Shown: piece after piece, positions 30,811-48,054 of the stretch | How the letters are laid out: every line of letters begins with the position of its first letter | How positions within the stretch are numbered: position 1 is the stretch's first letter | Assembly: GCA_023666705.1 (NCBI GenBank) | Contig: JAMPBO010000002.1 | Coordinates: 1 to 64,000 of the forward strand | Origin: Bacteroides sp. | GTDB lineage: Bacteria; Bacillota; Clostridia; Lachnospirales; Lachnospiraceae | Direction of reading: 5' to 3' | Length of the DNA stretch: 64,000 nt | The notes under the pieces: model-generated | What the model was told of the DNA's origin: nothing | The model's database searches: none | What the model saw: the letters and a program-made list of their open reading frames with translations, nothing else | Position numbers and translations under genes: made by a program

Positions 30811-31347
30811 ATGGATATTTGGAGAGGGGTATTGGGCTTTGTCCTGTTCCTTGGCTTTGGGACTGCCGTTTTGGTGTGTATATCCGCCATTAAGCGGCAG
30901 CCTGACATAATAATTAAAAGCAGACTGCACCACAAATTGAACCGTTCCGAGGTGATTTACGCAAATCTGGGGCTGGTTCTTTTTGCGGTGTTTGCTTATT
31001 TTCATTATTATGTATTTGCACCTGCTGTTCTGGCGTTTGTACTGTTTATCGTTTTATCTGCACGTGTGCAGAGCGGGCTTACCGATAAGGGTGCGGTTGT
31101 GGGAACCTCTTACCTTGAGTGGGAGTTTATTCAAAGCTACAAGCTTGTGGATGACCCGGAGGACAGCAATATCATTATTCTGAAGCTTCGGGCAAACAGA
31201 AGGCAGTATGTTATGGTGTGTGAGAGACGGGACCGGTTTGCCATTGCAGATTTGATGAAAGAAAATGAGGTTGCGGTCACGCATACCATTTATAATCCAG
31301 AGGTTGAAGAGGAGGATGGGGAGCAACCGGATGCAAACAACACTTGA
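30811..31347 (+). CDS. Membrane protein, unknown, DUF5673-like
   Basis: 178 residues. Hydrophobic segments lie at about 5-25 and 52-82, followed by a soluble tail with GTSYLEWEFIQSYKL and IIILKLRANRRQYVMVC. This WxxIxxY...LxL pattern resembles DUF5673/YcxB-like PH-type domains attached to membrane helices. The last residues are acidic. It starts 2 bp after the transcarbamylase stop and is probably cotranscribed. The pyrBI promoter overlaps its stop codon. Confidence 0.7.
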   Translation: MDIWRGVLGFVLFLGFGTAVLVCISAIKRQPDIIIKSRLHHKLNRSEVIYANLGLVLFAVFAYFHYYVFAPAVLAFVLFIVLSARVQSGLTDKGAVVGTSYLEWEFIQSYKLVDDPEDSNIIILKLRANRRQYVMVCERRDRFAIADLMKENEVAVTHTIYNPEVEEEDGEQPDANNT

Positions 31348-36363: not shown

Positions 36364-38178
36364 ATGTGCGGAATAATTGGATTTACAGGTAACATGCCGG
36401 CGAAGGACATCATAATAGATGGGCTTGAGCAGCTGGAATACAGAGGATATGACAGTGCAGGCATTGCTTTGCTGGGAGCTGGAGAAATAAGCATAAAAAA
36501 GAGAACGGGAAAGGTTGCAGAGCTTAGGAGGCTGTGTGAGTCAGATGACAACAAGGCAACGTGCGGAATCGGACACACAAGATGGGCGACGCACGGCGGT
36601 GTTACGGATATCAATGCACATCCGCACAGATGCGGGCAGGTTGTACTGATACACAACGGAATTATTGAAAATTATAAACAGCTTATCACGGAGTATGGGC
36701 TTGCGGGAAAGCTTGTGTCCGAGACGGATACCGAGGTTGTTGCTGCACTGATGGATACCTTTTACAGTGGTGACCCTGTGGAAGCCATCAGAAAAACCAT
36801 AAAAGCATTATCAGGTGCATTTGCACTTTGCATTATGTTTCAGGATATACCTGACACAATATATTCCATAAGAAATGTAAGTCCGCTTGTTGCAACCTCA
36901 TGTGAGCAGGGCTCCATTATTGCCTCCGATTTAACGGCAGTCATATCATTTTCAAAGGAATATTTTGTAGTGCCGGAGTATCATATACTTACTTTGAAAA
37001 AGGATGGAATTGATGTCAGGGATTTGAAGGGAAATCAGATTAAGCCGGAAATGCTTTCGGTGAATTGGGATATTGCCAGTGCCAAGAAGGGCGGTTATCC
37101 GTTTTTCATGCTGAAGGAAATTTATGAGCAACCGGATGCCATCAGAAATACGGTTGCCCCAAGAGCAGGCTTGGGCTTGCCTGATTTTACGGACGATGGG
37201 ATAGACGATGCAGTCCTCAAAAACTGTAAACGGATAACGGTTGTTGCCTGCGGAACTGCCATGCATGCAGGAATGGTAGGAAAGCATATTATTGAAAGCC
37301 GCTTAAGGATACCTGTGCAGGTGGAAATTGCATCCGAGTTCAGATACAAAAATCCGATTATTGATGAGGATACATTAACGATAGTGCTTTCCCAGTCAGG
37401 GGAGACGATTGATACACTTGAGGCATTAAAGCTTGCAAAGAAAAATGGCTCAAAGGTTATCTCGATTGTAAATGTAAAAGGCTCCACGATTGCCCGTGAA
37501 AGCGACTATGTTCTTTATACCCATGCAGGACCTGAGATTGCAGTAGCAAGCACAAAGGCATATACGGTTCAGGTTGCCGCCATGTACCTTCTTACGTGCA
37601 GGATGGGACTGGTAAAAGAAATTTGGACAGAAGCTGAGGCAAAGCACTTTATGGGCAAGCTGATAAATGCATCAAATATTATAGAGTCCACATTGGAAAT
37701 GGCAAATAACATTAAACGAATTGCCAACCATATCAAGCTGGCTCCTGATGCCTTCTACATTGGCAGGGGCTTAGACTATACCATGAGTCTTGAGGCGGCG
37801 TTAAAGCTTAAGGAAATTTCATATGTACATGCGGAGGCATATGCAGCAGGAGAGCTTAAGCACGGAACGATAGCACTTATTACTGAAAATGTTCCTGTCA
37901 TTGCATTTGCAACCCAGGAAGATGTATATGGGAAAGTGATATCAAACATAAGAGAGGTAAAGGCGAGAGGAGCGTACGTTGTGCTTGTCAGCATGGACGA
38001 TTCGGTGGAAGACCCTGCCATCTGTGATAAACATATCAGAATACCGAAGCTGGAGCCTGAATTTACGGCATTTGCGACAGCAGTCATATTGCAGCTTATT
38101 GCATATTATACATCTGAGGCGAAAGGACTGGATGTAGATAAGCCTAGAAACCTTGCAAAATCCGTAACGGTGGAATAA
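36364..38178 (+). CDS. glmS: Glutamine-fructose-6-phosphate aminotransferase (isomerising)
   Basis: 604 residues. Makes glucosamine 6-phosphate, precursor of UDP-GlcNAc. The Met is followed at once by the nucleophile Cys (MCGIIGFTGN). GHTRWATHG is in the glutaminase half; SQSGETIDT and the KSVTVE end belong to the SIS isomerase half. GGAGGAG site. No glmS ribozyme is recognisable in the 190 bp upstream. The long palindrome begins 3 bp after the stop and may serve as terminator. Confidence 0.97.
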   Translation: MCGIIGFTGNMPAKDIIIDGLEQLEYRGYDSAGIALLGAGEISIKKRTGKVAELRRLCESDDNKATCGIGHTRWATHGGVTDINAHPHRCGQVVLIHNGIIENYKQLITEYGLAGKLVSETDTEVVAALMDTFYSGDPVEAIRKTIKALSGAFALCIMFQDIPDTIYSIRNVSPLVATSCEQGSIIASDLTAVISFSKEYFVVPEYHILTLKKDGIDVRDLKGNQIKPEMLSVNWDIASAKKGGYPFFMLKEIYEQPDAIRNTVAPRAGLGLPDFTDDGIDDAVLKNCKRITVVACGTAMHAGMVGKHIIESRLRIPVQVEIASEFRYKNPIIDEDTLTIVLSQSGETIDTLEALKLAKKNGSKVISIVNVKGSTIARESDYVLYTHAGPEIAVASTKAYTVQVAAMYLLTCRMGLVKEIWTEAEAKHFMGKLINASNIIESTLEMANNIKRIANHIKLAPDAFYIGRGLDYTMSLEAALKLKEISYVHAEAYAAGELKHGTIALITENVPVIAFATQEDVYGKVISNIREVKARGAYVVLVSMDDSVEDPAICDKHIRIPKLEPEFTAFATAVILQLIAYYTSEAKGLDVDKPRNLAKSVTVE

Positions 38179-38181
38179 ACA

Positions 38182-38714
38182 AAAGGGGGCTGTCGCAGTA
38201 AGGATTTAAGGCACACTTAAAATTACACTGACAAGCCTTCTTTTATTTTGTATTTTTATAGTTACCGGCTATCTTTAGCATATTGATATTTTGCTTTTCT
38301 ATTATGTGGGGCACGAACTGCTGTCTGAGTGCACAGCCTTATGTTGCCAACCAGTATGTGTATTTTGAATGGCAACTTTTAAGACCGCAAGAATACCTCA
38401 CATTTGAAATTTGCGATGTATGATTACATGCTGCTTAAGCGAAACTCGCTCCGCTCAAACAACGCTACGCAGCATGTTTCATCGCAAATTTCAAATGTGG
38501 GTATTCTAAACGGTCTTGTTGTCAAATTCAAAATACACATACCGATTGGCAACATGGCTGTGTACGAGTTTAAGGGAGTGCCCCACAAGCCATAATAGAA
38601 AAGAAAAATATCTTAATATGCTTAGATAGCACAGGTTGTAAAAATACAAAATAAAAGAAGGCTTGTCACGGATAAACAACTATGTGCCTTAAATCCTCGT
38701 GACAGCCCCTTTGT
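38182..38714. repeat. Long imperfect palindrome of about 530 bp (MITE-like)
   Basis: The two halves are reverse complements over almost their whole length, centre near 38450. Outer arms: GGGGGCTGTCGCAGTAAGGA... against ...TCCTCGTGACAGCCCC. Middle arms: TGTTGCCAA, GTATGTGTATTTTGAAT and AAGACCG recur reversed near 38510-38560. Inner arms: CATTTGAAATTTGCGATG against CATCGCAAATTTCAAATG and CATGCTGC/GCAGCATG. No transposase gene inside; a 63-residue reading is spurious. It fills the gap between convergent glmS and a lipoprotein gene, so it could also end transcription from both sides. Confidence 0.9.
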
Positions 38715-47873: not shown

Positions 47874-48054
47874 TTGTACAATATAGACAATATTACCGCA
47901 AGGCACACTTTCGCTATGTGTCGCACGTAACGGTACTAAGCTCGAAAAAACCTCGCTAAGTACCGACGGCTTTATGGTCCTAAGGAATCTGTCTGCTTCG
48001 CAGCCACCTTAGGACATTCAATGCCTTGCTTGTGATATTGTCTATATTGTACAA
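47874..48054. repeat. MITE-like multi-hairpin element of about 180 bp
   Basis: Terminal inverted arms 47874-47904 and 48022-48054 (TTGTACAATATAGACAATAT and its complement, then GCAAGGCA/TGCCTTGC). Between them lie CGGTACTAAGC/GCTAAGTACCG (47931-47965) and the GTCCTAAGG/CCTTAGGAC hairpin (47976-48015) also found at 61-100. No coding capacity. Sits between recD2 and comF. Confidence 0.85.

Follow-up and report, generated by a model that had tools for sequence, protein, structure and literature searches.

A long palindrome separating glmS from a convergent lipoprotein-like gene belongs to a patchy, multicopy class of repeats with a conserved 20-base tip

Almost the entire interval between glmS and the convergent gene downstream of it folds back on itself in the 64,000-nucleotide stretch of DNA analysed here (the window), which raises the question of what such a palindrome is and how it came to lie there. 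The initial annotation described a near-perfect palindrome of 530 bp, for which a MITE with very long arms, an inverted duplication or a source of double-stranded RNA were the options. The explanation preferred here, with a probability of roughly 0.6 on the sequence evidence, is that the palindrome represents one complete copy of a hairpin element, non-coding and non-autonomous, which spreads between the 3' ends of genes, is kept up at the level of DNA and acts as a bidirectional terminator.

Structure, copies and genomic sites

The arms of the palindrome join near 38450, their outer limits being 38173 and 38722, and the inverted repeat contains nested 20-30-nt blocks that are 93-100% complementary as well as some internal loops (Table 1). 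The minimum free energy of the single strand is -289 kcal/mol for the plus strand and -284 kcal/mol for the minus strand, against -125 kcal/mol (sd 6.4) for shuffled sequences (z of -25.7 and -25.1). The inverted repeat is hence found where the initial annotation had put it, with a fold z of about -25, while the term 'near-perfect' proves loose: the two arms are approximately 74% identical from end to end, with approximately 90% of the alignable columns paired, and because of this non-identity the copy is a quasi-palindrome whose internal loops are fixed. It is flanked by an A-tract on the left and a T-tract on the right, and its placement between glmS and a convergent lipoprotein gene is borne out by the coordinates of both. 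A Pfam search with the 238-aa lipoprotein-like protein returned no matches. No Rfam covariance model scored above its gathering threshold at the element or its relatives, the one hit at the element being a sub-threshold chance match to an miRNA model.

Table 1. Coordinates of the palindromic element, its parts and the adjoining genes in the window
Feature	Coordinates	Strand	Remarks
Full-length palindromic element, ~530 bp	38182..38714	.	longest ORF <=63 aa; dispersed copies
Left-end terminator-like hairpin	38181..38258	+	A-tract, GGGGGCTGTC...GACAAGCCTTC stem, U-rich tail; faces glmS transcription; fold -23.6 kcal/mol, z -4.4
Right-end terminator-like hairpin	38639..38712	-	GGGGCTGTC...GACAAGCC stem, U-rich tail; faces transcription of the lipoprotein gene; fold -20.5 kcal/mol, z -3.0
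Inner core stem at apex	38399..38499	.	20-nt arms, 100% complementary; DNA fold z ~-9
Apex motif TGTTTGAGCGGAGCGAGTTT (class consensus TGTYTGAGCGNAGCGAGTTT)	38442..38461	-	contains d(GCGNAGC), N = G
glmS	36364..38178	+	SIS and GATase domains; stop codon a few bases from the element
Lipoprotein-like gene, 238 aa	38717..39433	-	convergent with glmS; stop codon at the right T-tract of the element

The genome is not simply full of long palindromes, a notion that was rejected since the window copy is the sole strong one in a 452-kb sample. The element itself is dispersed, long and self-complementary, and lies almost only where transcripts end. Five full-length copies are present in the same assembly, namely C22, C1:39803, C28:61392 and C6:71657 (89-95% identical) plus the degenerate C2:24160, together with numerous short derivatives of 55-200 bp; the ends of six contigs also fall inside further copies. 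A 21-base pattern for the tip of the hairpin has 51 matches (33 + 18) in this genome, and the reversed-pattern control has none. Among 61 genomes the element occurs in five, all of one genus: the genome of the window (G000), G001, G015, G036 and, weakly, G033. Most genomes of that genus lack the 530-bp element, which three close relatives have, and the unit is preserved whole among copies of four genomes. A collection of plasmids contained no match to the element. Deletion derivatives include a 200-bp form on C27 and a 151-bp copy in G001 (C8) that stands opposite a 529-bp copy at the orthologous site of G015 (C48), and their junctions exhibit homologies of 2-5 bp. As the same 530 bp are found elsewhere, an inverted duplication does not account for the origin of the window copy. 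An assembly or chimera artefact, in which one arm was folded back on itself, has a negligible probability: several contigs do end within copies, showing these to be hard for assemblers, but the arms are diverged and non-identical, the copies each have unique flanks, and the element recurs in three separate assemblies from related species.

Two other structures lie in the window. A second, shorter palindrome at 47874-48054 has TTGTACAATATAGACAATATTAC arms that are 96% complementary, with 135 nt between them; it probably represents another dispersed palindrome family, because related arms occur elsewhere in the genome (G000:C29, approximately 86764-86990, locus L110). A hairpin at 30905-31013 has 39-nt arms, 74% complementary and 31 nt apart.

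All 31 of the sites surveyed for gene orientation are at gene 3' ends, 21 between convergent and ten between tandem genes, against a baseline of 5.8% convergent gene pairs in the 452-kb sample. None is divergent, an absence that taken alone is not significant (p = 0.14) since divergent gene pairs are rare too. The element is absent from orthologous sites in relatives: at the glmS site G011 and G022 carry unrelated, ordinary terminator hairpins in its place, at the C28 and C1 sites the relatives carry ordinary short terminators, and in G036 a site that the element occupies in G015 is a bare junction, GAGTAAATTATATCC.

Each end of the element folds by itself into a terminator-like hairpin whose U-rich tail lies approximately 65-80 nt in, so that folding finds a G+C-rich stem-loop with a U-rich tract at the 3' end of a gene on both sides. 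A strict consensus terminator scan flagged neither end hairpin, since it accepts loops of no more than 8 nt. Judged from its sequence, each end would be an intrinsic terminator, so that the insert would serve glmS and the lipoprotein gene as a bidirectional terminator. Since both ends fold in this way, the predicted output is a pair of short convergent transcripts rather than a 530-nt double-stranded RNA; the dsRNA-like transcript from both genes that had been proposed is not favoured, given the terminator hairpin at each end and the strand-symmetric mismatches of the arms described below. At another locus, L122 (G000:C31:66400-66800), a terminator contains the inner A/T block of the element (AAAATACAAAATAAAAGA) with a different hairpin.

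The apex and its arms

The 20-base tip is the sole sequence common to the wider class to which the element belongs, and the arms differ by lineage. Its consensus, TGTYTGAGCGNAGCGAGTTT, occurs, usually as several copies, in 13 of the 37 genomes searched in the genus and in 6 of 196 in the order. With Y and N allowed, the apex has exact matches in 12 of 398 phylum genomes (9 of 266 genera; reversed-pattern control, zero), a patchy distribution in which a single genome often has many (36 in G435). It is central in a palindrome, judged against shuffles, at 73 of 76 loci, comprising 47 of 48 in the genus and order and 26 of 28 in the phylum, and the arms around it are unrelated between different genomes. 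At the orthologous glmS site of G016 the apex, as TGTTTGAGCGAAGCGAGTTT, is also in the loop of a different palindrome.

Stable DNA mini-hairpins obey a GNA-loop rule. The apex contains d(GCGNAGC) with all four bases found at N, and this middle base is the most variable of the motif (approximately 42 variants against 12 at the other six positions, in a hand tally of the single-mismatch variants listed by the genus scan). The form d(GCGAAGC) is an extraordinarily stable DNA mini-hairpin (PMC10527192). The variable middle base would therefore fit an ultra-stable GNA-loop mini-hairpin at the apex, a reading that stays tentative because folding of the bare 20-mer with the DNA parameters of ViennaRNA does not yield the d(GCGNAGC) mini-hairpin. 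In the open-access literature the core of the apex is printed only in papers on unrelated subjects, presumably as primers, and no description could be found of a shared 20-base tip with varying self-complementary arms.

The apex occurs in further arrangements. In G008, two apex palindromes stand head-to-head, approximately 330-350 bp apart, at L246, L247 and L252 and enclose a third hairpin, CCACAGCTTAAAAC...GTTTTAAGCTACAGG; similar inverted pairs are seen in G259 and G498. In G190 (L270, L272 and L273) a separate repeat block of up to 268 bp, 99% identical across two contigs, ends in the apex hairpin; the DNA past this hairpin is unrelated, which could mark the true boundary of an element. 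Six viral contigs contain the 20-base apex, two of them as palindromes that clearly exceed shuffles, the others being marginal or non-palindromic; the tip plus the first arm had no match among viral contigs. At L314 and L317, both on viral contigs, a further hairpin, for example GTACTTTTTCTTTTGTATCAAGACAAAAGAAAAAAGTAC, comes after the apex motif, and this hints at carriers beyond the phylum of the window.

The arms covary strongly in the G008 family. Among 16 copies in G008, 46 of 69 pairs are doubly changed, with 219 such cells; shuffles give 73 and slid controls 24-41, and the covariation score of 0.534 compares with 0.194 and at most 0.111, respectively. The 207 double Watson-Crick cells far exceed variable G-U pairs, most of the 60 G-U cells being at a few constant pairs. 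The clade of the window shows less covariation (22 of 209 pairs), and its mismatches are roughly strand-symmetric (G-U to A-C, 61:57), as expected if pairing is held at the DNA level. The ratio for the whole class, 246:200 (p = 0.03, with cells that are not independent), leaves room for some RNA-level role alongside DNA-level pairing. At the L253 site the elements of G008 and G020 are mutually inverted, and nine pairs differ between them at both positions yet are Watson-Crick in either genome. Template switching yields compensatory changes and loop inversion (PMC8794818), to which the differences at L253 correspond. Strong covariation, few G-U intermediates and roughly strand-symmetric mismatches together mean that the pattern of the arms points to DNA-level correction by this route. 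At L257 the elements of G008 and G024 are nearly identical despite flanks that are only 88% identical, which suggests recent transfer or conversion of the element.

Mobility and competing explanations

The first origin to be weighed is a conventional MITE, derived by internal deletion from a DDE transposon, whose terminal inverted repeats are very long and whose transposase, acting in trans, has since been lost or escaped detection. Of the options in the initial annotation this comes closest, as the element is a dispersed, non-coding palindrome with inverted-repeat ends, internal deletion derivatives exist and G036 has an empty junction. The suggested search for other copies with target duplications did recover the copies, but in 20 of them no duplication of 2-9 bp was better than in controls with re-paired flanks. 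The A/T-tract flanks blur the ends of the insertion and lower the power at 2 bp, such that a very short duplication, for instance TA, could hide; TA is seen at one site, in the comparison of G036 with G015, and is not general across copies. Two transposase profiles were searched. PF13751 (DDE_Tnp_1_6, IS1182-type) has no match in seven genomes, carriers included, and on this ground an IS1182 origin was rejected for a tip that was presumed to resemble IS1182 ends. PF01797 (Y1_Tnp, RAYT) is absent from G000, G001, G015 and G036 and from the tip-rich G008, G020 and G024, and mobilisation by Y1/RAYT enzymes was rejected accordingly. Among the tip matches of the window's own genome no pair 1-3 kb apart encloses a transposase. 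An inverted apex pair in G094 was rejected as an autonomous unit, its two copies, 1.6 kb apart, flanking an aminopeptidase-like gene and no transposase. With the class conserving its loop while the arms and ends vary, a conventional MITE is considered unlikely.

Somewhat less probable again is a succession of nested terminator hairpins, in which palindromic repeats were inserted one after another into the loops of short terminator repeats and there is no element as such. Each end is by itself a hairpin, solo tip hairpins are common, and at L253 a solo hairpin in G024 corresponds to that hairpin plus a palindrome plus its exact reverse complement in G008 and G020. Yet the 530-bp unit is whole in copies of four genomes, and the short forms are explained equally well as deletion products with junction homologies. 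The last alternative, which has the poorest prospects of these three, is a functional structured RNA, or a long double-stranded RNA cut by RNase III, transcribed from either or both of the convergent genes, with covariation reflecting selection on RNA pairing. The very strong covariation of the arms and the very stable predicted RNA fold would suit it; the early terminator-like hairpins at both ends, the near equality of G-U and A-C mismatches in the clade of the window, the excess of double changes over G-U intermediates in G008 and the lack of any Rfam match above the gathering threshold, both at the element and at its relatives, all argue against it.

Under the preferred explanation, a mobile hairpin element, the hairpin would act as single-stranded or extruded DNA, with the tip as a recognition or nucleation cap for a putative mobilising enzyme that leaves no target duplication. 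Complementarity of the arms would be maintained by template switching during replication (quasipalindrome correction), and the instability of palindromes would trim copies, via short-homology deletions, into short solo terminator hairpins. A wider proposal is made more tentatively, as a possibility that falls short of being probable: these repeats may constitute an undescribed class of mobile DNA hairpins in the Bacillota, and possibly beyond given the few viral contigs with the apex, having an invariant mini-hairpin apex and freely varying, self-templated arms, with mobility provided by an enzyme, either dedicated or of the host, for which the apex in single-stranded DNA is the recognition site.

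What appeared to be a lone palindrome is a member of a patchy, multicopy class with one invariant 20-base tip. That tip offers a specific bait with which the putative mobilising enzyme could be caught, and the class is a natural test bed both for template switching that keeps long palindromes self-complementary and for the conversion of mobile repeats into transcription terminators.

Comparison with known systems

The element resembles REP-type and MITE-type repeats, yet it counts as a variant and as a member of neither, because the defining features differ: the target duplication in the case of MITEs, and the size, tag and RAYT in the case of REPs. Like the element, REPs and REPINs, with their RAYT, are dispersed extragenic palindromes mainly located downstream of genes or between convergent genes (PMC3116915, PMC3733652). 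REPs are thought to move through recognition of the hairpin, and CGTC REPs are likewise without a known transposase (PMC3116915, PMC3733652). REPs are 20-40 bp long with a conserved unpaired tag, GTAG or CGTC, at one end, whereas the element reaches 530 bp and conserves its apex rather than its foot, the feet being A/T tracts with GGGGCTGTC and no such tag; Y1 transposases are also missing from the window clade and from the tip-rich G008, G020 and G024. MITEs such as ERIC and RUP are similarly short, non-coding, non-autonomous intergenic elements with inverted repeats (reviewed in PMC10969869), but neither a target duplication nor a matching IS was found for the element, and conservation across its class is in the loop instead of the terminal repeats. 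SPRITE of Streptococcus pneumoniae is a repeat resembling an intrinsic terminator (PMC10969869), and the short derivatives of the element look similar in kind; the element has a long palindrome and a conserved apex besides.

Two likenesses concern folded DNA. The mini-hairpin d(GCGAAGC) is shared in the form of GCGNAGC at the apex, with the middle loop base the most variable; it is familiar as a motif of DNA chemistry, and no report was found of it as the tip of a bacterial repeat. The attC sites of integrons are folded hairpins of single-stranded DNA that are kept by structure more than by sequence, with conserved boxes at the foot of the stem and a loop that varies. In the element the arrangement is the opposite, the loop being kept while the foot varies, and no integron array was seen.
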